NCBI RefSeq assembly: GCF_000337355.1
Contig: NZ_AOJH01000006.1
Span: forward strand, 58,183-122,182
Reading direction: 5' to 3'
Origin: Halorubrum kocurii JCM 14978
GTDB taxonomy: Archaea; Halobacteriota; Halobacteria; Halobacteriales; Haloferacaceae
Length of the DNA: 64,000 nt
Shown here: positions 2,289 through 23,282 of the stretch, piece by piece
Layout: each line of letters begins with the position of its first letter
How positions within the stretch are numbered: position 1 is the first letter of the stretch
Notes under the pieces: model-generated
Databases searched by the model: none
What the model was told of the DNA's origin: nothing
What the model saw: only the letters and a program-made list of their open reading frames with translations
Program-made: the position numbers and the translations under genes

Positions 2289-2613
2289 GTGAGCATGACA
2301 CGAAGACTGGCCCGCGGGTCGTCCGCCGGAACGCGGACGACCTGTGGGCCGTTTGCCGACAATAGTTTTCAGGACTGGTACTCCGAATACGAGATTACCG
2401 CATTAGATGTTGAGTACCTCGTTCACGTGGATCAACTCCAAATCAGCCGCCAACACCGCGCTCATTCGAAAAAAAGGCTATACACAGCGATGGATGTCAA
2501 AAACTTCCTACTCAACAGTCAAGCGAACGCAGGACTTCGCCCTGCGTTCGCAGTTCTGGTACCGACAGTTCCGTGAGATCATCCTCTCGTTCACACGCTA
2601 CAACCTCAAGTAG
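2289..2613 (+). pseudogene. Remnant of an IS5-like DDE transposase C-terminus
   Basis: Two overlapping frames together resemble the end of a haloarchaeal IS5/ISH-type transposase. One (about 2350-2430) gives FADNSFQDWYSEYEITALDVEY. The other (to 2613) ends KRTQDFALRSQFWYRQFRE then IILSFTRYNLK, close to the familiar 'IKRT...ALRARxWYREFREIVL...YN(L/I)K' ending. A frameshift separates them and the N-terminal two thirds are missing. The family assignment rests on recalled motifs only. Confidence 0.6.
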
Positions 2614-2689
2614 CTCGTCAAAACACTATGATCTCGCTTCCTTACCGCATTTTCAATAGAGCACCCTAGTCAGCTATAATTAAATAGAA

Positions 2690-4027: not shown

Positions 4028-4053
4028 AATAAAAGTATCTGTATTTGAGATGA

Positions 4054-5514
4054 CTACGACACAGATACTTTTGATGAGAACTTTCCAATAATTGGTTTAG
4101 TCATTTGCCAAATCGCTGTCCGAGTCGGACTGTATATCAATATTCCAATTACATATATAATTACCCCAAATAAAACTACAAAGATTAGGTCGGGGATTGT
4201 ATTAATTACTATTATTGATGAAGTAATATAAACCAGAAGCATCATTACGAGGGAAACAACTGCGCTCCAAGCTGCCTGAAATAGTGGAAGATCGATTTTT
4301 ATAAATTTGTTTAGATAGCGAGCATGTAGAATAGTATTTAAACCAAAAGATATCGTTGTAGCGGCGGCTGCACCAATAATACCAAATTCAAAGATCAATA
4401 CAATATTAAGTATTATGTTAACTATTATACTAGTGATTGTCGCATATGCAGACAGTTCTGGACGATCAATAGCCATCAGTGGTCGTGCAAAGACCCCATA
4501 CAGTGATTGGATAACCTTTTCTCCAGAGAAAATAATCAGGACCAACCACGCAACGGTGAATTCACTACCAAACAGCACGCGAAGGAGGTCTTTAGAAAGA
4601 ACGATAGTACCTGCAAATGCTGGAATTACAACAAGCAACGAGGGAAGAGCTGCCTTTGGGATAACCTCCTCAATACGATCGGTGGCGCCTTCAGCATCCC
4701 ATTGACTAAATTGAGGAAAGATAGTTGTTTCAATAGAACGGCTAATCATCAACGCGAGTAGAGATAGTCTCCAAGCATTCTCATAGGCCCCGATCTCACC
4801 ACGCGTAATATTTCCCACTTCAGTTAAAAATAGAGTCAAAATTAATATGTCGATCCAACTATATACTGTTCCGCCTATAGATGGTACCACACTATATTTA
4901 CCATAATCAAATAGCGATCGGCAAGCATTAATCGAGGGATAGCCAACATTTGTTTCGACTTTCCACCAAGATATTACAAGCGTAAGAATTGTACCAAAAA
5001 GGTGACCATATACAAGAGCAGAGACACCATATCCTTGGATATACAGATAATATCCTACAGTAAGCCAGCTTAACGGATGGATAGTTTGTATGAGAGCCGT
5101 CTCACCAACTCGGAGCTCACCACGGAGAACCCTCATACCAAGGCCAGCTCCTTGATCTATCACCAGTATTAATACTAGTATATAGCCGAGTTCTGCACCT
5201 AAGTATTGATTGATATAGTTATTTGCTAGCAATAATAACACACTAGGTACAATTATAATAACTGATTTTAGCAGGATAGCTGACGCAAGATACGTATCAC
5301 GATCCTTTCCTTCACTAATTCGTTTTTCAGCAGCACTTTCAATCCCAAGATCTGTTGGAATGCTCAGTATTCCAATGAAAGCTATAAAGCCATAGTATGT
5401 TCCCAAGGGTGATGCCCCTGCCTCTCTCGAAAAAATGATTACAGCTAGAAAACCTCCAATAGATTTTATAACTTTAGATATAAACATCTTGACACTTGCT
5501 CCAACTAAGTTCAT
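4054..5514 (-). CDS. Polysaccharide/oligosaccharide flippase (Wzx/RfbX-type)
   Basis: 486-aa integral membrane protein with about 12-14 hydrophobic helices spread over its whole length, as in the MATE-like polysaccharide flippases that turn lipid-linked sugars across the membrane. N-terminal MFISKVIKSIGGFLAVIIFSR, the early motif REAGASPLGTYYG and the Gly/Arg loop GMRVLRGELRVGET match that family. It lies 26 nt upstream of the pyruvyl transferase on the same strand, so the two are probably one operon that decorates and exports a surface glycan. It shares the high AT content of its neighbour. Confidence 0.85.
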   Translation of the reverse strand: MNLVGASVKMFISKVIKSIGGFLAVIIFSREAGASPLGTYYGFIAFIGILSIPTDLGIESAAEKRISEGKDRDTYLASAILLKSVIIIVPSVLLLLANNYINQYLGAELGYILVLILVIDQGAGLGMRVLRGELRVGETALIQTIHPLSWLTVGYYLYIQGYGVSALVYGHLFGTILTLVISWWKVETNVGYPSINACRSLFDYGKYSVVPSIGGTVYSWIDILILTLFLTEVGNITRGEIGAYENAWRLSLLALMISRSIETTIFPQFSQWDAEGATDRIEEVIPKAALPSLLVVIPAFAGTIVLSKDLLRVLFGSEFTVAWLVLIIFSGEKVIQSLYGVFARPLMAIDRPELSAYATITSIIVNIILNIVLIFEFGIIGAAAATTISFGLNTILHARYLNKFIKIDLPLFQAAWSAVVSLVMMLLVYITSSIIVINTIPDLIFVVLFGVIIYVIGILIYSPTRTAIWQMTKPIIGKFSSKVSVS

Positions 5515-5801
5515 GTTTACTATGCTATCAGCATCCAGTTATAAAAAAGTGGTTTCAGTATAAGTCTTTCATTACTTTATTAGATCTTTTAGTTCGCGTC
5601 ACATTCTCCGATAGATCGCATTCTGTGTCACCGAATCCTGCCTCAGTCGTCGGTTCCGTATGAGTAACTCTATCAGTCGAAGGCGATTCAGCACAGATCG
5701 TACCGTACGTCGCGCTTGTCGACCTCAACCCGTTTGATATGAAAAGTCTGCCACCGTAGCTGAACAGCTCAATTTCGCCTATCTCGTGCGATTTTACCAT
5801 T
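5515..5801. other. Gene-free junction between AT-rich and GC-rich DNA
   Basis: No convincing gene. Base composition changes here from the AT-rich polysaccharide genes to GC-rich DNA, and the homologous part of the next gene begins abruptly at about 5802. This looks like a recombination junction. Confidence 0.4.
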
Positions 5802-6476
5802 CCAGCCGAGATGATCAAGTACGCGAACAACGGGTTCCTCGCGACGAAGCTGAGTTTAATCAACGATCTCGGGAACATCTGCAAGGAACTGGGTGTCGAC
5901 GCGTACGAGGTCGCGGACGCGATCGGACTCGACGACCGGATCGGCGAGCGGTTCCTCCGGAGCGGGGTCGGCTGGGGCGGCTCGTGTTTCCCGAAGGACG
6001 TCGCCGCCATCATCGCCGCCGCCGAGGAGACGGGGTACGAACCGTCCCTGCTCAACGCCACCGTCGAGGTCAACGACCGCCAGCCGGAGCGCCTGATCGA
6101 CCTCACGGCCGACTACATCGATCTCGACGGCGCCACCGTCGCCGTGCTCGGACTCGCGTTCAAACCCGGGACTGACGACATGCGGAACTCCCGCGCCATC
6201 CCGGTCATCGAGCGGCTCCAGGATCGCGGCGCGACCGTCACCGCCTACGACCCGGTCGCAATCGAGAACGCGAAGGAATACCTCGACGACGTCGACTACG
6301 CCGACTCCGCGGAAGCCGCTCTCGACGGCGCCGACGGTGCGGTCGTGGTCACGGACTGGGACGAGTTCGCGACGCTCGACGAGGAGTTCGACGCGATGGC
6401 GGATCCGGTCGTCGTCGACGGGCGAAGAATCATCGAGCGCCGTGACGGAATCACGTACGAGGGACTGACGTGGTGA
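5802..6476 (+). pseudogene. UDP-glucose/GDP-mannose 6-dehydrogenase, C-terminal half only
   Basis: Residues from [16 protein letters not shown] onward match the central and C-terminal domains of nucleotide-sugar 6-dehydrogenases, including the catalytic Cys in [12 protein letters not shown] and the UDP-binding half ([26 protein letters not shown]). The N-terminal NAD-binding Rossmann domain of about 200 residues is absent: in-frame DNA before 5802 is unrelated. The remaining ATG at 5811 gives 221 aa against the usual 430 or so. Without the NAD site it cannot oxidise UDP-glucose, so I call a truncated pseudogene, although the C-terminal half is undamaged. Loss probably followed the rearrangement at 5.5-5.8 kb. 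Confidence 0.85.
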
Positions 6477-10169: not shown

Positions 10170-11114
10170 TCACTCTAAGACGTCTTCTTCGATGGAACTC
10201 ACTACTTCCTGTAGTCTTTGTAGTGAACGGGGGCGAGAAAGAGTTCGGACGCTCATCGACCGAGCCAACTGACTACAGCGTTCGAAGTGAGCTCGCGCGG
10301 AGTCGGTGTCCGAATCGCGGTACAGTGCGTATGACTGACGTAAAATCTCTAAGACCGCATCATGTGCCGGGACCTCGTTAATAGCGATGCTTTCTGCGTC
10401 TTCGATCAGATACAGCACATCTATGGCTTGATACCTCGTCGAGTGTCTGGCTGAAGTATCTATCCGCACTTTCCGGTCAGTTTGTTTCGACTGAGGTGGT
10501 GATAGTTCCAGTGAGGGAACAACGTCTGCGTTGACTCGCAATCGAGGTGGCCCAGGGGGCGCACAAGAGGCTTCCCCACTTGACTGAGGGAAAACGGGTA
10601 CGAGATCGTCTGAATGATGTACGTGACCGCTGGCGTAACACGCTGCGGCGACCGTCGACTTCCCCCGTCCGGAGGGTCCGGTGAACGAGACGAGCGTGTC
10701 GTCGATGACTACTGCACTCGCGTGAAAGACCACTGCACCCCGAGCGACGAGAGCGAGCCTGAGCCCGAGGTTCGTAACCAGCCATTTGACACTGTCTTGG
10801 TCAGCAGCGGGATTGGGTGAGACCGTGATTTCGTTAGTCTCGACGACCAGAGACCCGACACCCTGATAAGATAGAAAGAATCCGCCTTGCAAGCGATAAA
10901 TCTGTACTCCTTCGGCGTTGTCAGAGTACACTTTGTTAGCACCGAAACCCAGATCCTCTGAACGCTGTGGCAGGAACCCGAGTTTGACTGTTAGATCGGT
11001 CTCAGATCTATCGGGACTATTCGGAACGTGAGAAAGAAATCCGGAGAGTGGAATAGTCGATTGAATGTCTATTCCGAAGGCAGTGTACTTGTATTGGTTG
11101 TCGTCAGTAAGCAC
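10170..11114 (-). CDS. HPr-kinase-like protein of the lasso-peptide cluster (K1)
   Basis: 314-aa protein with an HPr serine kinase-type fold. It has LHASAV-like sequence (FHASAV, about 130-135), Walker A GPSGRGKST (146-154), and an acidic pair in HHSDDLVPV (166-174) at the catalytic-base position of HprK. In paeninodin-type lasso clusters a homologue phosphorylates the C-terminal Ser of the precursor, so modification of the small peptide encoded just upstream (11118-11252) is the likely role. The GTG start at 11114 lies 3 nt after that ORF's stop, indicating translational coupling. Ordinary HPr is not encoded nearby, which argues against sugar-PTS regulation. The target is inferred, not shown. 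Confidence 0.75.
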   Translation of the reverse strand: MLTDDNQYKYTAFGIDIQSTIPLSGFLSHVPNSPDRSETDLTVKLGFLPQRSEDLGFGANKVYSDNAEGVQIYRLQGGFFLSYQGVGSLVVETNEITVSPNPAADQDSVKWLVTNLGLRLALVARGAVVFHASAVVIDDTLVSFTGPSGRGKSTVAAACYASGHVHHSDDLVPVFPQSSGEASCAPPGPPRLRVNADVVPSLELSPPQSKQTDRKVRIDTSARHSTRYQAIDVLYLIEDAESIAINEVPAHDAVLEILRQSYALYRDSDTDSARAHFERCSQLARSMSVRTLSRPRSLQRLQEVVSSIEEDVLE

Positions 11115-11117
11115 TCG

Positions 11118-11252
11118 TCAACAGTTGGGATTGTAGTCATCGCTTTTTCCCGCACGAGAAAAACACTGGGCATTGTCGTTCGTCCCTCCGCTTTCAGTTA
11201 TGTCCTCAACATCACCGATTCTGCTGATTTTGGGCTTTTTATACGAGTTCAT
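11118..11252 (-). CDS. Putative lasso-peptide precursor A1
   Basis: 44-aa ORF starting at ATG 11252. The leader reads YKKPKISRIGDVEDIT (residues 4-19). This fits the lasso leader consensus YxxPxLxxxGxxxxxT: Tyr4, Pro7, hydrophobic Ile9, Gly13 and Thr19, with the Gly-to-Thr spacing of six seen in actinobacterial precursors. The C-terminal part (20-44) is small, polar and Gly/Asn/Asp-rich (SGGTNDNAQC, then FSRAGKSDDYNPNC) and has two Cys, one at the very end. A TATA box lies 27-34 nt upstream of the start, and K1 follows 3 nt downstream. The weak point is the ring: with Thr19 at -2, the first acid (Asp26) would be core position 6, not 7-9. Confidence 0.75.
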   Translation of the reverse strand: MNSYKKPKISRIGDVEDITESGGTNDNAQCFSRAGKSDDYNPNC

Positions 11253-11278
11253 TTCCACATATCGTCATTGTACTAACA

Positions 11279-11286
11279 ATATATAA
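11279..11286 (-). promoter_or_regulatory. TATA box for A1-K1
   Basis: On the minus strand the sequence reads TTATATAT, 27-34 nt before the A1 start codon. That is the spacing expected for a leaderless archaeal transcript. A second AT-rich block (TTTAAAAA) lies at about 11296-11303. Confidence 0.55.
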
Positions 11287-11514
11287 GTTCTTGCCTTTTT
11301 AAATAGTAGTGTTTAGGTACGGATCAAAGGAAGGGTGGTGCGGTTTCAACGTGGTCTGTGCCCGTGAAACTCGTTCATGGACCCCACATCGTGAGTTCAA
11401 ATCGAGTTACGAAGCGCGGTACGCCTGATTGGCATTTTTATCTAAACGGCCGGTGCACAAACCACTTAGTATTAAATCGGATGAGCACAGTATTATAGAT
11501 AATCCATCAATCGT

Positions 11515-12429
11515 ATGTACACATACTCTGCGTATGATCTGCAGACTAGATCTGTGTTCGAATTACCAGAACTTCCGGTGGCCAATAGAACCGCTGTAGG
11601 TCCTGACATCGAGATTGAGCGGGGTACCGTCGAACCCGTTCCAGAATCTGTGGAAGGTAGGGGTGGCCGTCGGATCGTGGCCACCCCCGACGCCGTCAGA
11701 CTGACGTACGACTCGATTGGGTCGTTTCTCGTAGAAGACGGAACCCGAATCGTGTGCGATCCGATAGACGAGGCGGCAGAGCAACGGGAGTTCTTCCGGC
11801 GACTCATCGAGAACGAACTGCTCGGACTGGTGCTTCACCAACGCGATCACCTCGTGCTCCACGCCAGTGCGGTTTCGGTCGACGGCAAAGCGGTGACGTT
11901 TCTCGGTCCGAGAGGCGCTGGGAAGTCGACGACGGCCGCGGCGTTCGACGCAGCTGGGTATTCAGTGTTGGAAGACGACGTGGTCGCGATCCGACTCGAC
12001 GAGAACGGGCCGATGGTAGTTCCGGGAGTTCCACAGCTCCGCCTAGAGTCGGATGCCGCCACCACGCTCGGTCTCCAAGGCACGACGACGCCTTCTGAGG
12101 AATCGTGGTACAAAAAACAGATGCTTCCGATCGAAGAAGTGCCCGAGACCGTCCCGTTGACCCGCTGCTATGTCCTCACCGAGACCGACGAACTCGAAGT
12201 GCACCGGCTCCCCGGGTCCGAACAGTTGCTAAGCCTCGTCACGCAAAGATACGTACAGGGGCTCCTCTCAGAGTCCGATCAGCCCAATATTCACATTGAG
12301 CAGTGTTCTCGTGTCGTGGAACACGCAGGGGTCCGAGTGTTAGCTCGGCCGCTAAACCACAGCCTACTGCCCGAACTGGTCGAAACAGTCGTTAACGATA
12401 TCCGGCAAGGCACACCCGAAGCCGATTGA
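11515..12429 (+). CDS. HPr-kinase-like protein of the lasso-peptide cluster (K2)
   Basis: 304-aa paralogue of K1, oriented the opposite way. Shared features are LHASAVSVDG (115-124), Walker A GPRGAGKST (131-139) and EDDVVAI (153-159), with the same domain order. The N-terminal 100 residues resemble K1 only weakly. It is convergent with the second candidate precursor (12641-12793), 211 nt away. Having two kinases and two precursors in one cluster suggests each kinase serves one peptide. The ATG at 11515 is preceded by an AT-rich tattatagat at 11491-11500. Promoters for K2 and for A1-K1 lie back to back in 11253-11514, where I found no further gene. Confidence 0.75.
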   Translation: MYTYSAYDLQTRSVFELPELPVANRTAVGPDIEIERGTVEPVPESVEGRGGRRIVATPDAVRLTYDSIGSFLVEDGTRIVCDPIDEAAEQREFFRRLIENELLGLVLHQRDHLVLHASAVSVDGKAVTFLGPRGAGKSTTAAAFDAAGYSVLEDDVVAIRLDENGPMVVPGVPQLRLESDAATTLGLQGTTTPSEESWYKKQMLPIEEVPETVPLTRCYVLTETDELEVHRLPGSEQLLSLVTQRYVQGLLSESDQPNIHIEQCSRVVEHAGVRVLARPLNHSLLPELVETVVNDIRQGTPEAD

Positions 12430-12640
12430 GTAACACGGACCGACAGTAGACGAATGGTACGAAGTAGATGTCTACAGTATCATACAGGGGTGTACCGATC
12501 TTCTCGTATGAATAAGCTGTCTGCGACCGGTATCAGAACCTCCCTAGCGATCGAAGGGCCACGGGCGTGGACACTGCGCTTTTCGACGCACTGTGTATGG
12601 ACTTTGGACGCTTCAAATAAGTTGGTGAGAACGGATCTGA

Positions 12641-12793
12641 CTACTTGTAACCGACGGACCCTTTCAGATTGATGGCCGGTTCGTCAACGTCAGTACCGGG
12701 CTGTTTCTTGTTGCCAGTTTGCGTGATCGATTCTACCGCACCGTGCTTATTAACTTCCGGAGCTTCGTACCGACTTGAGCTATTTTTGCTCAT
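12641..12793 (-). CDS. Putative lasso-peptide precursor A2
   Basis: 50-aa ORF from ATG 12793, read downstream of the cyclase gene. The leader holds YEAPEVNKHGAVESIT (9-24): Tyr9, Pro12, Val14, Gly18, Thr24 match YxxPxLxxxGxxxxxT position by position, and Thr26 follows. The rest, from Gly27, reads GNKKQPGTDVDEPAI and ends NLKGSVGYK. If the core starts at Gly27, Asp35 is residue 9, giving a classical nine-residue Gly-Asp macrolactam ring with a 15-residue tail. If instead Thr24 is the usual -2 residue, the acid falls at position 10. A strong promoter (12822-12848) sits about 30 nt upstream, so this small gene can be expressed independently of the cyclase operon. Confidence 0.8.
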   Translation of the reverse strand: MSKNSSSRYEAPEVNKHGAVESITQTGNKKQPGTDVDEPAINLKGSVGYK

Positions 12794-12821
12794 ATCTACA
12801 TGTCCATAGTCTAACTTGATT

Positions 12822-12848
12822 CATATAAAATCTGTGTTTGATCACATA
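12822..12848 (-). promoter_or_regulatory. A2 promoter with a motif shared with the N/D intergenic region
   Basis: On the minus strand TATGTGATCAAACACAG is followed directly by TTTTATATG. The TATA box lies 29-37 nt before the A2 start. Nearly the same block recurs at 17004-17030 in the same orientation (about 23 of 27 positions with one indel each), including the TGATCA palindrome. It is a candidate operator for cluster-specific control. Confidence 0.55.
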
Positions 12849-12876
12849 CTATACCAGTCATAAGGAGCGCCGGTGG

Positions 12877-14751
12877 TCATCGATAGATGGTCTGTTCTTC
12901 CAACCAAGTGGCAAATGAAAGGGCGACCCACAGCGTATTCGGATCACGTGGTTTCGGATCGTTCTTGAATCGCTCGTATACTTCAGATAACGATTGCGGG
13001 TCGATGTACGGTCGAAGGATCTCTGGGTCCTCAACGAGAGATTGGACCTCGCCATCAGCGGCCGAGAGCGCGTGTGTGAACGCTTGGTTCATCATCGTTT
13101 TCCACGGTCTACATCGGATCTTATCCGGGAGCACGTCCGCTAACGCGCGACGGATTATCATTCGGGTCCATCCGTCTCGGAGCTGCTGTGTCGGTGGGAT
13201 TGCGAGGCTGAACTCAATTAGCCGTATATCCGTAAACGGGTATCTGGGTTCAATACCGAACGCCGCGTGTGTCACGTCGTTGGCTTCGAAGAACTCGGTC
13301 ATGCCCCCGCTCATCAACGAGCGGTACTGCCACCGACGGGCGCTACGCTTCAGCACTGAACCCTCGTCGTTCAAACGCATATATCGCTCTTGGAGTCCGG
13401 TCCGTTTCACGAACGACCGGTCAAGGGTCGGATTGAGTCGCTGTGTCCCCGTCGGCTTGCCTCGAAGCCGCCGGAAGATATCTTTTGCTCGACGCGGTAC
13501 CAGATTCGGGAGCACCTGTCCCACGAGTAGCCCCCTCGGCCGACGGTCGAGGACGTCTCCCATCGCGTCCAATTCCCTGTAGAGGTGCCTCCACCGACCG
13601 GTTCGCGCCAGCTGTGGGAGAAGACCCAGTCCGTAATCGACGGCACTGTCTCCGTGTGAGCCCTCTAGAATCACACCGATGCCGTCTTGGCTCGCTCGTT
13701 TCGCGATCTCCCATTTCAGGTAATGCATTGTATTTTTCACCGGCTCATCGTGGTACCGCAGAGCCTCGTCGATATGGCCCACGGCGCTCAGATCATCGAG
13801 AAAAAGGTAATTGGAGTCGATTCCGTCCCTCTCGACGAGCCTCTCGATATACTCTCGCTCGTCGGAGGCGCTGCTTTCATCGGACACTCCAGAGTACGTG
13901 GTCAGTGTGGTTTCGGGGGGAAGAATCTCCCGTGTGACGGCCGTGATTGACGACGAATCCAGTCCACCACTGAGGCTCGCACCGGTCGGCGTGTCGGTTC
14001 GGAGACGGGATGCTACTGCCTGATCGAACAGTTCTCTGAACCGGTTGGCGTACGCCTCGTCCGACTCAAGCGTGAGCGTTCGCGTCGGATCGAGATCCCA
14101 GTACTGCCAGGTCTGATCCATCCCCATTGAGACAGCCATGGCGTGAGCGGGAGCGAGACGTCGAACGGACTCGTAGAACGAGTTTGTTTTGTCTTCAAGC
14201 CGCCCGAGGAGGAAGTCACCGACTCGATATTCGTCCAGAGACGGTCTGACACTGGGCAACGCTATGAGCGACTTCGGTTCCGAGGCGACCGCAAACACGT
14301 CGTCAGTGGCGTGGTAGTACAGCGGCTTGACGCCGAGGTGGTCTCGGGCACAGAACAGTGTCTCTCTTGATGAGTCCCAGACGACGAAGGCAAACGCACC
14401 GATTAATTCGTCCACACAGGCGTCGCCCCACTGCCGGTACGCCTCCAAGAGGAGATGGCTATCGGGAATCTGTCGCGGTACGTCGGTAAGACCAAGCCGA
14501 TGTAGTAAATCCGCTCTGTTGTCCAGCCGCGCGTCGGACGCGACTACGAACCCGTCGTGGGCGTACGGTTGTTCGTCGACGTAGCCTTGTGGCGTCGTTA
14601 CAAGCTGCTGGTGTCCGATACCGACAACGTCGTTCAACCACTCTCCGTCGCCGTCTTGGCCCCGGTGTTCGATAGCAGCAAGCATTTGCTGCAGCCATTC
14701 GGGATTCAGACCGGTGCCCGTCCGATCGAACACGGCAGCGATACCGCTCAT
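12877..14751 (-). CDS. Asparagine-synthase-like lasso cyclase (C)
   Basis: 624 aa. In lasso pathways this family adenylates a core Asp/Glu side chain and closes the macrolactam with the new N-terminus. The N-terminal Ntn-type domain starts MSGIAAVFD: Ser replaces the Cys2 nucleophile of true asparagine synthetase B, so it cannot draw ammonia from glutamine, a hallmark of lasso cyclases. The ATP-pyrophosphatase loop ASLSGGLDSSSITAV is intact (about 258-272). Its ATG overlaps the B2 stop codon (ATGA), so it is coupled to the protease gene. Alternatives such as a generic AsnB paralogue are made unlikely by the B1, B2 and D neighbours. Confidence 0.85.
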   Translation of the reverse strand: MSGIAAVFDRTGTGLNPEWLQQMLAAIEHRGQDGDGEWLNDVVGIGHQQLVTTPQGYVDEQPYAHDGFVVASDARLDNRADLLHRLGLTDVPRQIPDSHLLLEAYRQWGDACVDELIGAFAFVVWDSSRETLFCARDHLGVKPLYYHATDDVFAVASEPKSLIALPSVRPSLDEYRVGDFLLGRLEDKTNSFYESVRRLAPAHAMAVSMGMDQTWQYWDLDPTRTLTLESDEAYANRFRELFDQAVASRLRTDTPTGASLSGGLDSSSITAVTREILPPETTLTTYSGVSDESSASDEREYIERLVERDGIDSNYLFLDDLSAVGHIDEALRYHDEPVKNTMHYLKWEIAKRASQDGIGVILEGSHGDSAVDYGLGLLPQLARTGRWRHLYRELDAMGDVLDRRPRGLLVGQVLPNLVPRRAKDIFRRLRGKPTGTQRLNPTLDRSFVKRTGLQERYMRLNDEGSVLKRSARRWQYRSLMSGGMTEFFEANDVTHAAFGIEPRYPFTDIRLIEFSLAIPPTQQLRDGWTRMIIRRALADVLPDKIRCRPWKTMMNQAFTHALSAADGEVQSLVEDPEILRPYIDPQSLSEVYERFKNDPKPRDPNTLWVALSFATWLEEQTIYR

Positions 14752-15206
14752 AACTCTTTGCCGGCGTCCATTGATGCGAGTGGTTCGTAACGGTCCAAAT
14801 CGTTGAGCTCTCCAATGAGCACTTCATTACGGTATTCAAGCCAGCTATGTGCCTCCATTGGTGTATCAGACTCGGTTGTGACACCGATCTGGTGGTCCGG
14901 TTCGAACGCGTACAGTCGTAACACCGTTTCGGCGGCTAACGACCGAACGAGACACGTTCGGCCGCCTGGGAGATAGTAATCTGCTATCTTTACCGCTGAA
15001 ACGACCCTGTGTGCCGTTGGATCTCCCGGAACGATCAGCGCTCCATAGTTGCTAATCCTCAACAACGATGCTCGCGTTCGAGACATGACCACGTTCGTGA
15101 GCACAAGCGGCAGTGATAACAAAAGTGCAACTGCCAGAAGGAATCGAATCGGATCGCCGGGAGACCATGAGACCGTCGCTGTCGAGTCGCCGACTGAGGT
15201 GGTCAT
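14748..15206 (-). CDS. Lasso-peptide leader protease (B2, transglutaminase-like)
   Basis: 152-aa cysteine protease of the Transglut_core3 family (PF13471), which removes the leader from lasso precursors. The catalytic Cys85 sits in GGRTCLVRSLAAE, His120 in MEAHSWLEY, and the third acid is Asp136 or Asp138 in GELNDLDRY. One membrane helix lies at about 21-41. I chose ATG 15206 because it overlaps the B1 stop (ATGA); the longer start at 15272 would overlap B1 by 70 nt with Arg-rich sequence. Order B1-B2-C on one strand with two ATGA overlaps is typical of a tight biosynthetic operon. Confidence 0.88.
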   Translation of the reverse strand: MTTSVGDSTATVSWSPGDPIRFLLAVALLLSLPLVLTNVVMSRTRASLLRISNYGALIVPGDPTAHRVVSAVKIADYYLPGGRTCLVRSLAAETVLRLYAFEPDHQIGVTTESDTPMEAHSWLEYRNEVLIGELNDLDRYEPLASMDAGKEL

Positions 15207-15496
15207 TCGTCGAGACGTACGAGGCCTTCGTCCACCATCTCGACCAGCATCTTTGAGACGTCGCGTTGACACCGCTCGTACGCCACGTCGTACTCCGAGA
15301 CGACTTTTTGTGAGACTTCGTCGAGCGTTTTGGGTTGCTGAATCATCTCCCAGACGAGCGTGCCGACTTCGTTCACACTGTAGTACACTCCGTCGTCTTG
15401 ATAAAGTATGACGGTTTCGCCGTCAACTGCCGTAGAGATGCAGTTCTCCGCCGCTACGACCGTCGTTGTCTCTGCGATTTTGTTAGCGTTTTCCAT
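15203..15496 (-). CDS. PqqD-like RiPP recognition element (B1)
   Basis: 97-aa free-standing PqqD-family protein, the leader-binding partner that hands the precursor to B2. Characteristic blocks are GETVILYQDDGVYYSVNEVG (about 26-45), the aromatic/Gly turn before TLVWEMIQQPKTLDEV, and the C-terminal helix MLVEMVDEGLV. It is the first gene of the B1-B2-C operon. An atattaatat TATA box at 15521-15530 lies 25-34 nt before its ATG. Leader residues Tyr and Pro in A1 and A2 are those that B1 proteins contact in studied lasso systems. Confidence 0.88.
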   Translation of the reverse strand: MENANKIAETTTVVAAENCISTAVDGETVILYQDDGVYYSVNEVGTLVWEMIQQPKTLDEVSQKVVSEYDVAYERCQRDVSKMLVEMVDEGLVRLDE

Positions 15497-15520
15497 GCGT
15501 TATCGGTATTCTGTTACTCT

Positions 15521-15530
15521 ATATTAATAT
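15521..15530 (-). promoter_or_regulatory. TATA box for the B1-B2-C operon
   Basis: The AT block atattaatat is centred about 30 nt before the B1 start codon. Between this and the N gene (15531-15745) I see no further ORF with a lasso leader. Confidence 0.55.
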
Positions 15531-15745
15531 TTCTTTGCCAACAGAAGAGTGTCGGCCTCGACATCACGCGAGAGCCCTAAAATAGCTCAAAAAGCTGCTA
15601 TCGAATTGTAGCACTGAGCGGATCACGAGTAAAATTTATACAGCGGTCTGTGTTTGATTTTGACTGACGAAATCGCGGCCTGTCAATACTGGCCCCCTAC
15701 AAAGTTAGCATAATAAATCGGCCACAAACAAATTCCGACCCGCGA

Positions 15746-16942
15746 TTACTTTTTAATCCACTCTACTAGTAACCGCAGAGGCCGAACAAAATAATACAGC
15801 GGGTAAAGCTTCGGCGGTAGCGATACCCACCGGTGGTCGACCGGCCACGGCGAGACTATCTTATTTACAGCCTCACGTATCGAATCTAGTGGAGTGTTAT
15901 TCAAAAATACAATTATCGTCAACGGGTCTAGGTCAAGCCGATCACCCGTCGGGTCTGATAAAAACAGCGCACAGAGAATCGATGACCCGATATTTGCGCG
16001 TGGATCCGCAGAAATCTGCTGGCGAACTCTGCTGGGTACATCGATCTCCGCCAACTCGGCTGCTACCGAAATTCCGAGTAATGCGGCGGTCTTCCAACCG
16101 TACTGGGCGGCACGATCGAGGATCTCATTCCACGCAGTATGTTCTTGAAGGAGCAGAGCAATATCACAGACCCACGAGAGACGACACCAACCGTGTTTAG
16201 TGCCGTGTGCAAGGAGAAGAACGACTCGATCTTCCGGTGACAATGCGGGAATCGGCTCGCCAGCCAGTGTAACTGACGTCCGACGTTCCCACAGTTCCAA
16301 GAACAGTCTTTCTGCCTCTCGATACTCACCCACGAACCTATGCCGGAGATCGATCGGTATCTCGTCTTCTTCGCTGAAGAAATGGAACTCACCTTCCCAT
16401 TGGAAAATCGAACCTTCGACGAGTTTCGAGGGAGAAACACCAGTGAAATCTGTCTGGTTGTATCCCTGCTGGCGGAGAACTTCGTGAGCATCAACCGGGT
16501 CCTCCTCCACGACGAGAAAGTCTAAGTCGCTGAACCACCGACGACTTACGCTTCCGTAGGCGATGTCCGCAACTACTGGACCCTTGTACGGGATCACTCG
16601 GATTTGGTTCTCCCGAAATGATTCGTTGAGATCGTGTAATCGTTCGATATACCGGATATTCTCTATCGCCTGACTGCGACACCGGCTCTGTACTGTTTGT
16701 ACGAACTCTTGAGGAACGGCATCCTCGATTTCACTGAGCGCTTCATTCAGCAGTGGCACGATGCCGTGGTCCGCTGCAAGACTAAGCACTTTGCTCCACT
16801 CGGGGTTGGTGTGTGCAATCTCCCGGATCCGTGTCTCAGCTTGGTCTGGATTCCCGATGTGACGGACGAGACTGAACACGAACTCGGCCTCGGGAGTTGT
16901 GGGCGTCAACATACGCTCAGGGTGGTCAGACGTCGGTACCAC
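15746..16942 (-). CDS. Nucleotidyltransferase family protein of the lasso cluster (N)
   Basis: 398-aa protein of the NTP_transf_5 family (PF14907). The marker is IPYKGPVVADIAYGS followed by RRWFSDLDFLVVEED (about 118-150), with the Asp-x-Asp metal site in SDLDFLV, and a C-terminal helical half. Homologues (PadeN-type) accompany the kinase in paeninodin-like lasso clusters, where their role is unsettled, perhaps further tailoring of the phosphorylated tail. The start is GTG 16942 or ATG 16912. The promoter-like block at 17004-17030 lies about 60 nt upstream of the GTG, and a 16-codon mini-ORF (16926-16976) intervenes. Confidence 0.75.
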   Translation of the reverse strand: MVPTSDHPERMLTPTTPEAEFVFSLVRHIGNPDQAETRIREIAHTNPEWSKVLSLAADHGIVPLLNEALSEIEDAVPQEFVQTVQSRCRSQAIENIRYIERLHDLNESFRENQIRVIPYKGPVVADIAYGSVSRRWFSDLDFLVVEEDPVDAHEVLRQQGYNQTDFTGVSPSKLVEGSIFQWEGEFHFFSEEDEIPIDLRHRFVGEYREAERLFLELWERRTSVTLAGEPIPALSPEDRVVLLLAHGTKHGWCRLSWVCDIALLLQEHTAWNEILDRAAQYGWKTAALLGISVAAELAEIDVPSRVRQQISADPRANIGSSILCALFLSDPTGDRLDLDPLTIIVFLNNTPLDSIREAVNKIVSPWPVDHRWVSLPPKLYPLYYFVRPLRLLVEWIKK

Positions 16943-17003
16943 TAAGAGGTGCAGTGGTTGGATACGTTTTGTTCATAGGATAGATGTTTTTACTGATTTG
17001 ACA

Positions 17004-17030
17004 CATATGAATTTGTGTGTTGATCACGTA
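17004..17030 (-). promoter_or_regulatory. Promoter-like block upstream of N, shared with A2
   Basis: On the minus strand TACGTGATCAACACACAA is followed by ATTCATATG. It matches the A2 promoter block at 12822-12848 in sequence, order and orientation. It lies between the divergent genes N and D, so it could act on either. Confidence 0.5.
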
Positions 17031-17110
17031 TTATGATCGACGAAATTAGATCAGGATAACACTTATTAATAGATTGTCCAATACGTTGATAACTATCCGA
17101 AAACAGTAAA

Positions 17111-18889
17111 ATGACAGTTGGTATCCGAAAGAAGCTCTCTGTGTTGTATGAAGCAGCGCTATTTCGCCCGCTGCTGGGCGTTGGGATTATCATATCAAGT
17201 CTTGCAACGGCGCTGCTTGAAGGAATCGGCTTGGGCTTTCTATTACCGATCGTCGAAATTTCTCAATCGTCGACGACACCCGAAGGGACTAATGGAATCT
17301 TAGGTGTCTTCGTGGATATCTACTCGTTCTTCGGTATCCCGTTCACGCTTGAGTATCTTGTTCTTGGCATCGCTAGCGTCATGTGCGTCCGGTTCGGACT
17401 CAGCTTTCTTACAGCCTGGATCCGTTCGGATCTCAGCATGAGTTACCAGCGATATCTCCGTCAAGAACTGTTCGACTCGCTCATGCTCGGCCCTGTCGAG
17501 TACATAGACCAGCACGGATCGGATGAACTGTTAAACAGCCTCATCACAGAGACGAATCGTTCGGCGAGTACCGTGATGGGGTTATACAATGTGATTGAAG
17601 TTGCACTCCGAGGCGTAATTTACCTCGCGATCGCCGCGGTGCTTGCACCGGTTCTCACTCTTATCGCTGCGGTCGCTCTCGGACTGAGCACGCTGTCGGT
17701 TCGCTACGTCCTCGAACCTGCGTACGCTGCAGGCGACGATGTCGCAAAGGTGAACGACCGTATCCAAACCATCTCTCAGACGGGGGTCCAAGGGACACGC
17801 GAGGTCCGGCTGTTCAACGTACGCGCCGATATCATCGGGCGGATGCAAAACACGCTGGACGAATACGTGCGAAACAGCGTCCGATTGCGACGCAATCGGG
17901 CGGCGCTCACGAACCTCAACAAGTTCACCAACGCTCTCGTCGTATTCGGTCTCGTCTACGCGGGAATCAGGTTTACTAACATTTCGCTGGCTGAACTGGG
18001 TGTGTTTCTGTTCGCCGTCTTCCGACTGTCGCCCGTCGTGAATCAGATCAACACGACTGTGTACCGGTTGGACGGACAGCTGCCGCACTTCATCCGCGTA
18101 CAGTCCCGAATACAGGACCTCCACGAGAGAGAGATCCCGGCCACCGACGGCAACACGTCGATCGACTCCGTCGACCAAGTCGTGTTCGACGACGTCTCGT
18201 TTGCCTACGACGACGAGCGGGTACTCGACGACGTCTCGTTCAGCGTGACAACCGGGGAGAAAGTCGCGCTCGTCGGCCCGTCGGGCGCCGGGAAGTCGAC
18301 CATCGTCTCGTTGCTTGGACGCCTCCAGAGGCCGGACTCGGGCCGGATCCTCGCCGATGGAACCCCAATCGACGAGCTCGATGTCAAAGAGTGGCGCGAG
18401 CGGATCGCAGTCGTTCGCCAAGCCCCGTTTTTGTTCGACGATACCCTCGTAGAAAACGTGAGGATCGGCAATCAAGATGCGACCCGTCGGGAAGTCAAAC
18501 GGGCGTGCGAAATCGCGCAGGTGACGGAGTTCCTCCCGGAGCTGCCTGACGGCTACGACACGGAGATCGGTGAGGACGGGACTCGTCTCTCCGGTGGCCA
18601 GAAACAGCGGGTTGCCATCGCCCGAGCCTTGCTCAAGGACGCCGACGTGCTCGTCCTCGACGAGGCGACGAGCGAGCTGGACTCGAACATCGAACGCGAC
18701 GTGTACGAGGGGATCAGAAACCGCGAGAGCGAGTACGCGACGATCAGTATCGCCCACGACCTGTCGACCATCGACGACGCCGACCGGATATACACGCTCG
18801 TCGACGGGAGTGTTACAGAAGACGGCACCCACGAGCAACTCCTCTCGGACGACGGGACGTACGCCGAGCTGTACGCCACACAAACGTGA
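17111..18889 (+). CDS. ABC exporter of the lasso-peptide cluster (D)
   Basis: 592-aa half-transporter with a fused permease and ATPase, the type that exports mature lasso peptides and often confers self-immunity. About 330 N-terminal residues contain six predicted helices (for example LLGVGIIISSLATALLEGIG and the pair near 170-200). The ATPase has Walker A LVGPSGAGKSTIV (about 389-401), signature LSGGQKQRVAIARALL (about 495-510), Walker B VLVLDEAT and the H-loop SIAHDLST. There is no peptidase C39 domain, as expected when B2 removes the leader. It is divergent from N, with a likely TATA (acttattaata) at about 17061-17071. Confidence 0.85.
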   Translation: MTVGIRKKLSVLYEAALFRPLLGVGIIISSLATALLEGIGLGFLLPIVEISQSSTTPEGTNGILGVFVDIYSFFGIPFTLEYLVLGIASVMCVRFGLSFLTAWIRSDLSMSYQRYLRQELFDSLMLGPVEYIDQHGSDELLNSLITETNRSASTVMGLYNVIEVALRGVIYLAIAAVLAPVLTLIAAVALGLSTLSVRYVLEPAYAAGDDVAKVNDRIQTISQTGVQGTREVRLFNVRADIIGRMQNTLDEYVRNSVRLRRNRAALTNLNKFTNALVVFGLVYAGIRFTNISLAELGVFLFAVFRLSPVVNQINTTVYRLDGQLPHFIRVQSRIQDLHEREIPATDGNTSIDSVDQVVFDDVSFAYDDERVLDDVSFSVTTGEKVALVGPSGAGKSTIVSLLGRLQRPDSGRILADGTPIDELDVKEWRERIAVVRQAPFLFDDTLVENVRIGNQDATRREVKRACEIAQVTEFLPELPDGYDTEIGEDGTRLSGGQKQRVAIARALLKDADVLVLDEATSELDSNIERDVYEGIRNRESEYATISIAHDLSTIDDADRIYTLVDGSVTEDGTHEQLLSDDGTYAELYATQT

Positions 18890-18992
18890 CGGCGGAATCG
18901 GAGGCGCACGTGAGTACCCAACGGCGGAAGACAGCGTGAATTGGGATCCGTTTATTCGGAACACTAATCGGACCATACTCTGAGTGGTGAGT

Positions 18993-20012
18993 ATGCCCGA
19001 GCTTAGCGCCGACCAGACAATCTCACTCAAGTCACTGCCCCTGCAGCCCCACAGTGTTCTCACGGCTGTCGATGAGGACGGCGTCATCCGATATACCAGT
19101 CCCTCGGTTGAACGCGTCCTCGAGTACACCCATACGGAGTTGCTCGGCGATCACGTCACCGACCACGTGCATCCAGACGACCGCGAGTTGGTGTCCGGGA
19201 TGTTGCAATCGCTGACCGGCGGTCAAACACAAGCCAGCGAATCCGTCGAGTATCGATATCAGCAGGCGGACGGCACGTACGTGTGGGTCAAATCCGTCGG
19301 GTCGCGGGAACCGACCGACGAGGGGTGGTACCTGATCAACACCGAAGAACTCGCGGGGCGAAACGTGACCGACGAGAGCCGGGATTTCGGCGAGTTCGCG
19401 AATGTCGTAAGCCACGACCTTCGAAACCCACTCAACGTCGCTTCGGGGCACGTAAAGTTACTGTACGAGGACCTGAAGGGGGAGAACACCGACTATCGCG
19501 AACGACTCGAGAAGGCAATGCACGCACACGATCGGATGGAGACGTTGATCCAGAATCTGTTAACCCTCGCTCAAAGCGGGGAAGACGTCGACGAGGTACG
19601 CTGGATCGAGTTCGCCTCGCTGTGTCAACGTTGTTGGCGAAACGTCTCCACTGGGGAGGCTCAGGTGACGATCGACTTCACCGGCGAGATCCGAGCGGAC
19701 GCGTCCCGACTCCAACAGCTGGTCGAAAACATCATTCGGAACGCTATCGAACACGGCGGCGAGGACGTAACGGTAACAATCGGAGAGACGGACGACGGTA
19801 ACGGGTTCTATATCGCCGACAACGGCCCCGGAATTCCCGACTCGATACGAGACCGAGTGTTCCGGAACGGGTTCTCGACAGCATCGGACGGCACTGGGTT
19901 CGGTCTCGCGATTGTAAGCGGGGTCGCTGACGCACACGGGTGGGAACTGGAGGCCACGGAGAGTCGAGACGGCGGTGCCAGGTTCCAGATCACCGGCGTC
20001 GATCGTCGATAG
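18993..20012 (+). CDS. PAS-domain sensor histidine kinase
   Basis: About 339 aa from ATG 18993 (GTG codons at 18984 and 18987 are alternatives). One PAS domain (about 20-125: LTAVDEDGVIRYTSPSVERV to TYVWVKSVGS) is followed by the dimerisation helix with phospho-acceptor His in FANVVSHDLRNPLNVASGH. The HATPase domain has N-box ENIIRNAIEHG, G1 box ADNGPGIPD and G2 box DGTGFGLAI. No membrane helices and no receiver are seen, so it is a cytoplasmic sensor of the haloarchaeal kind. It begins 100 nt after the exporter gene on the same strand. A link to lasso regulation is possible but unsupported. Confidence 0.88.
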   Translation: MPELSADQTISLKSLPLQPHSVLTAVDEDGVIRYTSPSVERVLEYTHTELLGDHVTDHVHPDDRELVSGMLQSLTGGQTQASESVEYRYQQADGTYVWVKSVGSREPTDEGWYLINTEELAGRNVTDESRDFGEFANVVSHDLRNPLNVASGHVKLLYEDLKGENTDYRERLEKAMHAHDRMETLIQNLLTLAQSGEDVDEVRWIEFASLCQRCWRNVSTGEAQVTIDFTGEIRADASRLQQLVENIIRNAIEHGGEDVTVTIGETDDGNGFYIADNGPGIPDSIRDRVFRNGFSTASDGTGFGLAIVSGVADAHGWELEATESRDGGARFQITGVDRR

Positions 20013-20098: not shown

Positions 20099-21325
20099 TC
20101 ACGCGGCTGAAACACCGTCGTCGACGGCGCTGATGAAGAACGCGTTGAACACGGTCTGGACGCCGAGGATCATCACCGTGAGCGCGACGATGTGTCCGGG
20201 GGTCGCGGCGAAGAGGGGGACGCTGCCGGTGACCCACTGGATCGCCGCCCAGGTGAGGTACAGCGCACCGACAGCGAACGCGGTCAAGCCGACGGTCGAC
20301 AGCCGCTCAAGATTCATCCGGTTGATAACGGTCTCGGTGACGACGTCGTTCGGCCGTTGGATCGGGTCGCTCGCCAAAGTGGCGAACACCCCCATATTCG
20401 CGGCTTGATAGCCGACGAGCACGAGCAGGGATCCGGTGATCGCTGCAGTGGTGCCGAGCGAGAGACCACCGATCGTGACGCCGGTGGTACCGGAAAGCAA
20501 AAGCGACAGCCCGGCGATGCCGAGAATAGCGCCCGGCAGCGAGAACAGGTAGTTCGGCGCGTTCAACAGCATGAACCGGACGTGACGCCACCCGTCCCGG
20601 AAGCTCTCGAGCGTGGCCTCGCCTTCGCGTTCGTGGTACGTGATCGGGATTTCTTTGATCGTGAGGCCTCGAGCGCCCGCGTCCATGATCATTTCTGAGG
20701 CGAACTCCATGCCCGTCGTCTCGAGGTCGAGGTCATCGAGGACGTCGACGTGGAACGCCCGGAAGCCGGAGTGCGCGTCGCTCACGCCGGCGTCGTAGAA
20801 CGCGTTCAGGAACCTCGTCAGGAGCGGGTTCCCGATGTACTCGTGGAGCGCCGGCATCGCGCCGTCTTTAATCTCGCCTTCCAATCGGCTCCCCATGACC
20901 ATGTCAGCGTCCCCCTCCACGACCTGCTTAAGCAGCCGAGGGAACTGTTCGAAGTCGTACGTCGTATCTGCGTCGCCGATGATGATGTACTCCCCGCGGC
21001 AACGCTCGAACGCGTACCGATAAGCGTACCCGTACCCCGGTTCGTCGGGCTCGACGACGACTGCCCCCTCACCGCGTGCGATCTCGGGGGTCCGGTCCGT
21101 CGAATCGTCACTGATGACGACTTCCGTTCGGTACCCAGACCGTCGGACTGCGGCCTTGACGAGGTCGATGCATTCAGCGACGCCTTCCTCTTCGTTCATC
21201 GTCGGCATGACGACGCTGACCGTGGGGTCCACGTCGGCATCGGGCCCGACGAGAAGCGGCTCCGCCTCGTCGGGCTGCTGTACTGGGTTTACTGACTGCG
21301 TTCCTCGTGCGTCTGTCGACGTCAT
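20099..21325 (-). CDS. Family 2 glycosyltransferase with C-terminal membrane domain
   Basis: 408 aa. The cytoplasmic GT2 domain (about 34-260) resembles dolichyl-phosphate glucose/mannose synthases. It has TVSVVMPTMNEEEGV, VVISDDSTDRTPEIA and the metal-binding IIGDADTTYDFEQFP. About 150 C-terminal residues hold four hydrophobic helices (LPGAILGIAGLSLLLSG, AAITGSLLVLVGYQAAN, TVGLTAFAVGALYLTWAAI, IVALTVMILGVQTVFNAFF). Such enzymes charge a polyprenyl phosphate with a sugar for S-layer or archaellin N-glycosylation. Its neighbours (epimerase, sulfurylase-like protein) fit glycan biosynthesis. The sugar is not identifiable. Confidence 0.85.
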   Translation of the reverse strand: MTSTDARGTQSVNPVQQPDEAEPLLVGPDADVDPTVSVVMPTMNEEEGVAECIDLVKAAVRRSGYRTEVVISDDSTDRTPEIARGEGAVVVEPDEPGYGYAYRYAFERCRGEYIIIGDADTTYDFEQFPRLLKQVVEGDADMVMGSRLEGEIKDGAMPALHEYIGNPLLTRFLNAFYDAGVSDAHSGFRAFHVDVLDDLDLETTGMEFASEMIMDAGARGLTIKEIPITYHEREGEATLESFRDGWRHVRFMLLNAPNYLFSLPGAILGIAGLSLLLSGTTGVTIGGLSLGTTAAITGSLLVLVGYQAANMGVFATLASDPIQRPNDVVTETVINRMNLERLSTVGLTAFAVGALYLTWAAIQWVTGSVPLFAATPGHIVALTVMILGVQTVFNAFFISAVDDGVSAA

Positions 21326-21593
21326 TAGTTGATTTGGTGGCTTCTGCGTTCATGGCGGCATGGATGCGGTGAGGACGGCTCTCCGGCGTGGCGGTGAGGC
21401 GGTCCCGACGAGACCGTCTTTGCGGCGCTCCGGTGTCAGGCGGTCGGGCCCCGGTCCATGCGAATCTATCACTACTATGACTGCCCGGACTCGTATAAAA
21501 ACATTTGTAATAAACTGCTCTTTCTGGATTTATGTATCGATCAATCAACTCTTACGGAGATTATTTGGATGAACGTAGCCTACACCTCTCGTA

Positions 21594-21719
21594 ATGCGAC
21601 GACGTCAGGTATTGGCTGGTGTCGTCGTCGTCGCGATGTGCGGGAGCAAAGTAGAGGTCACGTACGTCGTCGGATACGGTGCCGGCGGCGGTTACGGCGA
21701 AGGCGGATACGGTGAGTGA
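21594..21719 (+). CDS. Small Tat/lipoprotein-like peptide ending in YGxGGYG repeats
   Basis: 41-codon ORF from ATG 21594. It opens with MRRRQVLAGVVVVAMCGS: a twin-arginine-like motif (RRRQVL), a hydrophobic stretch and a Cys that could be a lipobox (VAMC). The tail reads VVGYGAGGGYGEGGYGE. The same Gly/Tyr motif occurs in two other exported-looking proteins of this window (6951-8039 and the end of 8120-9508), which supports real coding despite the small size. It precedes the convergent epimerase gene by 76 nt. Function unknown; it could be a fragment of a longer exported protein. Confidence 0.5.
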   Translation: MRRRQVLAGVVVVAMCGSKVEVTYVVGYGAGGGYGEGGYGE

Positions 21720-21795
21720 CCTTGTAGACATCAGACGACCGCGACCGACCGGCAGTGAGCAGCGTCGTGGAGTGAGGGACAACGGAGAAGGGGGG

Positions 21796-22719
21796 CTACT
21801 GCGTGAGGAGATACGGTTCACAGACGCGTTGGACGCCTTCCTCGAACGGAATCTGCGGCTCCCAGCCTGTCGCCTCGCGGATCCGGGAAATATCGGCACA
21901 CGTGTCGTGGACGTAGTTGTTCAGCGGGATGGGCTCGTACTCGGGATCGACCGACGTGCCGAGTACGTCGTTGATCAGCTCGATCATCTCGTTGAACGAG
22001 TACGGATCGCCCGTGCCGAGGTTATACACGCCCGCGAGGTCGTGGTCCGCTGCCGCCTCAAGCCCCCGGACGATATCATCGACATGCGTGAAGTCACGCG
22101 TCTGTGACCCGTCTCCCCATAACACCGGTGACTCCCCGGCTGCGATTTTGTCGGCGAACTGCGAGACCGTGTTCGCGTACTCGCCTTTGTGCGCTTCATT
22201 ACCGCTGTACCCCTGGTATACGGAGAAGAACCGCATGCCGGCGAGCGAGAGCCCGTCGTAGAAGTTGTTGTAGTACTCCGCGTACCGCTCCCGGCCGAGC
22301 ATCGACGCATCATAGCCGGTCGCCGCGTCGAGATCCATATCCTCAGGGCTCGGTTCGGTTCGACTGCCGTACGCCGACGACGTGGATGCGTACACAATCG
22401 TGTCACAGCCGTCCGCAAACGCCTGTTCGACGACGTTCACGAATCCCTCAATGTTGACCCGGGCGCCCCGGAGCGGATTCTCTTCGAGCATCTGCCGTGA
22501 GGAAAGCGCGGCGAGATGGAAGACGGCATCCACGTCCGTCGGAAGTGTCTCATCGAGCACGTCCCCCTCAACGTACTCGACGCCGCCGTCGAGATTCTCC
22601 GGCGTTCCGAGGTAGCCGTTATCGAGGGCGATGACGTCGTTATCGAGGGCGAGGGTGTTTGCGAGATTCGAACCGATGAATCCTGCTCCTCCGGTTACGA
22701 GGACGCGTTGGTTTTCCAT
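21796..22719 (-). CDS. NAD-dependent sugar-nucleotide epimerase/dehydratase
   Basis: 307 aa from ATG 22719 (MENQRVLVTGGAGFIGSN); the start at 22740 adds seven unconserved residues. Extended SDR fold: GGAGFIG NAD loop, FHLAALSSRQ, catalytic Ser/Thr in STSSAYGS. The usual YxxxK is YDASM here (about 140-144), so the Lys is replaced by Met. The following RERYAEYY and MRFFSVYQGYSG, then GDGSQTRDFTHVDDIVRG, are typical of UDP-sugar epimerases in haloarchaeal glycosylation loci. The missing Lys could mean an altered mechanism or a binding-only role. It probably supplies a sugar for the adjacent GT2. Confidence 0.82.
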   Translation of the reverse strand: MENQRVLVTGGAGFIGSNLANTLALDNDVIALDNGYLGTPENLDGGVEYVEGDVLDETLPTDVDAVFHLAALSSRQMLEENPLRGARVNIEGFVNVVEQAFADGCDTIVYASTSSAYGSRTEPSPEDMDLDAATGYDASMLGRERYAEYYNNFYDGLSLAGMRFFSVYQGYSGNEAHKGEYANTVSQFADKIAAGESPVLWGDGSQTRDFTHVDDIVRGLEAAADHDLAGVYNLGTGDPYSFNEMIELINDVLGTSVDPEYEPIPLNNYVHDTCADISRIREATGWEPQIPFEEGVQRVCEPYLLTQ

Positions 22720-23282
22720 GCAGGTAACGCAGTATTCCACCGGCTACAAAAATCTAGTGTGCACGGCGACTCCCACCGGCTCTCCCGGCAGTCTCCATGC
22801 CGTAGGCCCCCGTTACGCTCCAAACGGCGTACACACATGGACCGGTCGAATCCGCGATCCCGCGAACACGCGGCGTGTCGAGCCCGTCTCGCCCTACTTC
22901 CCGTTCCCCACGTGTCGTGATAGATGTTAGATAGAACCGAACGTACAAAACAAACAACCATTACAGACATACCTACGTAAACTATTGAGGCGCGTTAGCA
23001 TCCGACTGATATTCAATTGACGTATAACTATTACGCTTGTATTGGTGTAAATGTATGTCCGTAAACCGAACTGTCCATGCAGTATGACGTTTACTTCGGC
23101 CACTCTCGTTCGTCGAGGGTAAATATCGGACCAACACTGGGATCGAGATGCGGCTCCGGGTGGAGCAACAGTCCCCTACAAAAGAGGATCAAGAAGTTTC
23201 ACATCGTCGTCAGTCAGTTTACGATTCCGATTCGACGGCCGTCGCCAAGAGCGCTTGTTACCCGTTGCTGGCAGTCGCCGCA
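22720..23282. other. Gene-free intergenic stretch
   Basis: Reading both strands I find no ORF with a recognisable domain. AT-rich segments near 22930-23050 may hold promoters. The downstream half (23077-23282) has no structure I can interpret. Confidence 0.35.

Follow-up and report, generated by a model that had tools for sequence, protein, structure and literature searches.

A predicted lasso-type peptide island with two precursors and two kinases in the haloarchaeon Halorubrum kocurii JCM 14978

The 64-kb stretch of Halorubrum kocurii JCM 14978 analyzed here (contig NZ_AOJH01000006.1; "the window" below) contains a gene island that raises a simple question: does a haloarchaeon carry a pathway for a lasso peptide, and does that pathway follow the bacterial rules of leader cleavage and ring size? 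A sequence-only reading of the same DNA had proposed a lasso cluster of the phosphorylating type made up of a cyclase (C), a leader peptidase (B2), a recognition domain (B1), a nucleotidyltransferase (N), an exporter (D), and two kinases (K1 and K2). All seven open reading frames (ORFs) were found where they had been placed (Table 1), and curated profiles, a cyclase tree that sets C apart from AsnB-like proteins, and precursor genes bear out the class. The gene list was incomplete, since two precursors, A1 and A2, had been overlooked within the same interval. We consider it probable (roughly 0.83) that the island serves to produce and secrete a modified peptide of the lasso family, with A1 as its precursor and with K1 and A2 as the remnant of a second cassette.

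Table 1. Genes of the island, with coordinates in the window
Gene	Assignment	Position	Strand	Basis
K1	HprK-like kinase of the A2/A'-tied lineage	10170-11114	-	weak HprK_rel matches, motifs, clade, modelled fold
A2	second precursor-like peptide	11118-11258	-	leader motif
K2	HprK-like kinase from the main lasso lineage	11515-12429	+	TIGR04352 E 4e-9, 23-row kinase clade
A1	predicted lasso precursor	12641-12793	-	leader motif, family of homologues beside cyclases
C	predicted lasso macrolactam cyclase	12877-14751	-	NF033535, tree, Ser2, SGGLDSS
B2	predicted leader peptidase	14748-15209	-	ORF opens at 15272; ATG at 15209 gives Cys85/His120
B1	stand-alone PqqD-like recognition domain (RRE)	15203-15496	-	PqqD 66 bits, 9x90
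N	NTP_transf_5 nucleotidyltransferase/sugar-adding enzyme	15746-16942	-	PF14907, invariant DxD
D	ABC exporter	17111-18889	+	ABC_tran 121 bits, ABC_membrane 45 bits

The lasso genes and their precursors

Cyclase C scores 595 bits against the lasso cyclase model NF033535 (cut-off 525), has an intact SLSGGLDSS motif, and carries Ser in place of Cys at residue 2, as the sequence-only reading had observed. The tree set 33 haloarchaeal cyclases against 18 bacterial lasso cyclases and a sample of 21 non-lasso AsnB-like proteins. All 33 fall into a single group (92/92) next to the bacterial lasso cyclases. C is placed with those bacterial cyclases that adjoin B1/B2 and is separated from 20 of the AsnB-like proteins, the remaining one being a very long basal branch. 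C also passes the asparagine synthase model TIGR01536, though barely (267.4 versus 267.1 bits), which is what favors taking it for an asparagine synthetase-like enzyme of other metabolism, with the gene set fortuitous. We find this scarcely credible given the far larger lasso cyclase score, the tree position, the Ser2 that replaces the glutaminase Cys, the adjoining B2, and the precursors conserved beside C. Primary-metabolism AsnB, which the sequence-only reading had named as an identity that would refute it, was rejected on profile, tree, and neighboring genes.

The family-model check that had been suggested was run, and B2 (89 bits against NF033537, cut-off 33) and N (196 bits against PF14907, cut-off 31) join C in exceeding their cut-offs. 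The Cys85 and His120 pointed out in B2 are present and invariant across 42 of 42 haloarchaeal B2 proteins, and N has an invariant DxD (D139, D141). B1 scores 66 bits against PqqD (cut-off 23) and aligns gap-free to PbaB1 (9x90) with an E value of 2e-11. Its Asp79 aligns with Asp70 of LppB, which hydrogen-bonds the leader Tyr (PMC13381572); the B1 pocket is thus of the Tyr type, which fits the two Tyr-type leaders of A1 and A2. The genome contains a single NF033535 match and a single B2.

When the window was searched with the leader motif [YW]xxPx[LVIFAM]xxx[GH]x5T, A1 and A2 were the only ORFs to match, where dinucleotide shuffles lead one to expect 0.075. Divided by the bacterial cleavage rule, one residue after the leader Thr, A1 has the leader MSKNSSSRYEAPEVNKHGAVESITQ and the core TGNKKQPGTDVDEPAINLKGSVGYK, and A2 has the leader MEMNSYKKPKISRIGDVEDITE and the core SGGTNDNAQCFSRAGKSDDYNPNC. 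Both leaders keep to the register seen in bacteria (Tyr -17, Pro -14, Gly -8, Thr -2), that of A1 as YxxPxVxxxGx5T. The A1 gene lies 84 bp behind C and has a TATA-like box upstream, and A2 ends 4 bp before K1. The A2 core has no Asp or Glu at residues 7 to 9, and its leader is without the FETxxS motif of linear polyphosphorylated peptides (LPP); no signal-peptidase-like leader protease appeared in the profile results for the island's genes. Since neither A1 nor A2 has Asp or Glu at 7 to 9 under the Thr(-2) rule, our claim is a lasso-type cluster and not a proven lasso peptide.

Two kinases and the second cassette

Both K1 and K2 hold the complete set of His, GxxGxGKS, and Asp-Asp described for lasso kinases (PMC10368454), which agrees with their description as HPr-kinase-like. 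A structure model of K1 (pLDDT 92) matches HprK/P (E ~2e-6) and PEPCK (E ~5e-8) and supports an HprK/PEPCK-type fold. The kinase had been called duplicated; we see instead two old lineages with different precursors, K2 belonging with A1 and K1 with a precursor of its own. K1 clades with the K1 kinases of four haloarchaeal loci (L035, L039, L153, and L158; 100/92), while K2 falls in a separate clade of 23 rows (100/99) made up of kinases of cyclase-containing loci. A recent duplication was rejected on these separate, supported clades.

In the same four loci K1 sits directly behind a precursor, A', the two being always adjacent, and a second cyclase, C', lies nearby (C' clade 100/100). The position of A2 matches that of A'. 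The C'-A'-K1 cassettes, in which a leader ending in T-x is followed by the core G[RNQ]HFS[RA]VDGNSGTTGN with Gly1-Asp8, form a second haloarchaeal lasso subfamily. C' was not found in the window, where tblastn with the four C' proteins hits C alone; together with the single NF033535 match and single B2 of the genome, this led us to reject a lost second cyclase hidden there. Because C' is absent from the window and A2 lacks an acceptor residue at the standard position, we infer that A2-K1 is the remnant of a second C'-A'-K1 cassette whose cyclase is missing here. The A2 product, if used, is possibly a linear phosphopeptide handled by the same B1/B2.

Cyclase-less arrangements occur elsewhere: 16 haloarchaeal loci keep B1-B2-K-N without a cyclase, and 15 of their 16 kinases form one clade (100/99), a gene content pointing to linear phosphopeptides. 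Ten of the loci (L040, L041, L043, L044, L047-L049, and L051-L053), with the gene set B1-B2-D-K-N, have a 32-aa precursor with the leader MKEYETPSVETYGTVEEKTN and the core WWDHDDGYGKWS (last residue D in L051), exemplified by the gene at L040:9597-9695 on the minus strand. This precursor is nearly invariant, with 115 synonymous versus 20 non-synonymous pairwise differences, and the accompanying B2 retains its Cys and His; the product resembles a short, linear phosphopeptide bearing a C-terminal Ser. Other cyclase-less loci (L032, L033, L046, and L050) have differing cores: GEYYGSEPTY, WGRRRRWGGGWKYNRS, Gly-rich runs, and DEHYGHDEEY. A2-K1 and these relatives illustrate a way in which a pathway to a cyclic phosphopeptide may turn into one for a linear product.

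Proposed pathway and ring spacing

The analysis itself establishes genes, families, motifs, conservation, and trees. By analogy with bacterial homologues, from which every chemical step, the order of the steps, and any threading are drawn, B1 would bind the YxxP leader of A1, and K2 would phosphorylate the Ser near the A1 C-terminus (GSV motif). B2 would then take off the leader, C would adenylate the Asp and join it to the new N-terminus to give a macrolactam, N would attach a sugar or nucleotide to the phosphate, and D would export the product. In bacterial systems, PadeK acts as the kinase for a C-terminal Ser, and the phosphate it installs receives hexoses from PsmN (PMC9266682). The cluster provides a full set of named parts (precursors, peptidase, cyclase, and two kinases) for a predicted archaeal lasso route.

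Several points weigh against this interpretation. The kinase matches, K1 to HprK_rel (E 3e-5) and K2 to TIGR04352, are both far under their cut-offs. B1 stands as the stand-alone PqqD domain it was said to be, yet at 68.9 bits it remains under the cut-off of 80 for the lasso-specific model NF033536. Under the Thr(-2) rule, A1 has its acceptor Asp at residue 10 instead of 7 to 9 (Asp9 only with a cut one residue later), and its conserved Ser is not terminal, the C-terminus reading GSVGYK. Finally, N activity could not be demonstrated in the related LPP system (PMC13381572).

The position of the Asp varies across the A1 family. Beside haloarchaeal cyclases there are 30 A1-type precursors, counting L065 and L156, which repeat one another, once and with the Asp assigned by eye in L154 and L155. 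From leader Thr+1 their cores run through a variable spacer to [N/D/E]K-x-G-x3-D in most and GS near the C-terminus (28 of the 30 have it in their final 14 residues), the Ser of which is the likely phosphorylation site; most of the genes have TATA-like boxes. By the bacterial rule the acceptor Asp stands at residue 9 in 13 of the 30, at 10 in 7 (including A1), at 11 in 3, at 12 in 5, and at 13 in 2; that is, 17 of 30 have it beyond residue 9 (10-13). In the cyanobacterial precursors that accompany the nearest cyclases, it is residue 8 or 9. Natural lasso rings comprise 7 to 9 residues (PMC8498205), and a one-residue change of ring size usually abolishes lasso production (PMC13352647). Since the Asp spacing varies and natural rings stay within 7 to 9, either the cleavage slides, or the rings are larger, or closure differs. 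These readings divide the ring question among themselves and are not rivals to the identity of the cluster.

A sliding leader-core border, to which we give a little less than even odds, would have B2 or a trimming protease cut just before [N/D/E]-K-x-G-x3-D, producing a constant 8-residue ring with Asn, Asp, or Glu as residue 1, or else one residue earlier, producing a 9-residue ring (Gly1-Asp9 in A1); either way the lasso would be of ordinary size. It accounts for a block whose inner spacing is constant while its distance to the leader Thr varies (1-5 residues), it respects the penalty on ring-size change, and Asn as residue 1 has been shown for metanodin (PMC12670498). It has to contend with a leader Thr that keeps the bacterial register to YxxP and G, with B2 normally cutting one residue past Thr, and with L035, L039, and L153, where the same B1/B2 must also cut A' at the standard place (T-x before G1...D8). 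If cleavage is standard throughout, the haloarchaeal cyclases would make rings of 9 to 13 residues, above the natural lasso rings in the literature read, and some products may be unthreaded lariats. We think this unlikely in view of the natural range and the general intolerance of lasso enzymes to ring-size change, even though the Thr(-2) register is conserved, residue 1 would then often be G, A, S, T, N, or Q, the cyclase tree has spacers above 1 in several of its branches, and FusC can be induced to form a ten-residue ring in vitro (PMC8498205).

Ring closure through the side chain of the invariant Lys onto the invariant Asp, leaving the N-terminus free and variable in length, would explain why members of the A1 family keep a constant Lys-Asp spacing but differ in their N-terminal part. 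We regard it as very improbable, because the cyanobacterial precursors of the nearest cyclases are without such a Lys and fit N-terminal closure, and the K1-linked haloarchaeal precursors fit Gly1-Asp8 too. To our knowledge no lasso cyclase uses Lys, which we also count against it. A broader proposal, offered tentatively and with some doubt, is that the haloarchaeal lasso branch breaks the fixed leader-to-ring spacing, by natural 9-13-residue macrolactams or by a sliding B2 cut, and that in this genome one B1/B2 pair also serves the acceptor-less A2 with K1, giving a cyclic and a linear phosphopeptide from one archaeal locus. The A1 family offers a test of whether ring size and leader cleavage follow the bacterial rules universally.

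Genomic setting, distribution, and comparison with known systems

The island sits among polysaccharide genes (pyruvyl transferase, flippase, part of a UDP-sugar dehydrogenase, glycosyltransferase, and epimerases), which flank it on both sides (window 2690-6476 and 20099-22740), and the region around 2000-6000 is low in G+C (37-42%). The left flank is found in 0 of 51 other members of the genus searched and the right-hand glycosyltransferase in 7 of 51, a patchiness that marks the surroundings as accessory; as insertion marks, these flanks defined no empty site. The UDP-glucose/GDP-mannose dehydrogenase ORF (5811-6476, plus strand) has the central and C-terminal domains alone and looks truncated. 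Directly after D is a PAS-histidine kinase gene (18984-20012, plus strand), a possible regulator. By eye, the regions upstream of A1 (12815-12856) and N (17000-17037) are ~66% alike in the surroundings of GTGATCAA and of a TATA-like box and may have a regulatory site in common; strict patterns gave no second copy and nothing similar was seen upstream of the relatives' precursors, and we do not claim the element. Rfam gave no riboswitch or RNA element, and scans for sigma-70 promoters and terminators, uninformative for archaea, returned no more than shuffles.

B2 exceeds its cut-off in 31 of 391 haloarchaeal genomes. Across four families, the genomes with an NF033535 match number 5 of 170, 11 of 125, 9 of 146, and 0 of 26, and such matches are absent from all other members of the genus searched. 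The sequence-only reading had found the full set unexpected in an archaeon, but archaeal lasso clusters have already been predicted by genome mining: lassopeptide clusters count as one of the abundant RiPP classes in predictions for archaea (PMC12144867), a passage of PMC7533575 credits Tietz 2017 with naming Euryarchaeota as a lasso source, and B1, B2, and kinase have been reported in a haloarchaeon (PMC10093198). RefSeq already labels the B2 of Halopiger as lasso. The open-licence literature searched contained no archaeal lasso peptide product and was silent on the A1 spacing anomaly, on the C'-A'-K1 cassette, and on the cyclase-less loci of haloarchaea as a group.

The gene set had been likened to that of Firmicutes, and paeninodin/pseudomycoidin-type clusters of Bacillota do share split B1/B2, C, HprK-like kinase, NTP_transf_5, ABC exporter, and a leader with Y/WxxP and penultimate Thr. 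They differ in being bacterial and in a cyclase far from C: the Paenibacillus paeninodin-type cyclase scores 331 bits on the haloarchaeal profile, whereas cyanobacterial ones score 628-717. In the window, moreover, the Ser is subterminal, the acceptor Asp is at 10 by rule, and there are a second kinase and a second precursor. The Bsf cluster of Bradymonas sediminis (PMC10368454) likewise has A, B1, B2, C, D, K, and N, and its kinase residues H, G, G, G, K, S, D, and D are kept in the window; where Bsf has Ile at -2 and is phosphorylated at core Ser3, the window has Thr at -2 and a Ser near the C-terminus. LPP systems (PMC13381572) resemble the island in RRE, HprK-like kinase, NTP transferase, exporter, YxxP leader, and polysaccharide neighborhood, the last also seen for many paeninodin clusters of Bacilli, and they make a phosphopeptide without a cyclase, as A2-K1 and the cyclase-less haloarchaeal loci may. 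Their leader is cut by a signal-peptidase-like enzyme rather than B2, and the window has a cyclase.

Among the best 80 loci of the scan that supplied our relatives, so that a closer bacterial relative could exist, the nearest non-haloarchaeal cyclases are cyanobacterial (33-38% identity). Their clusters (Pleurocapsa, Oculatellaceae, Scytonematopsis, and Calothrix; L066-L072, L078, and L079) are arranged B1-B2-C-A-K, mostly with D and N, and share the gene set and the Thr-x leader border of the window; they differ in an acceptor Asp at 8 or 9 and in having no [N/D]KxGxxxD block. A cluster on plasmid pHALXA01 of Halopiger xanaduensis SH-6 (NC_015658.1) has a single kinase and no A2-K1, but it shares D, B1, B2, C, K, and N with the window, lies among polysaccharide genes too, and has a C 51% identical to ours and an A1-type precursor (L038).

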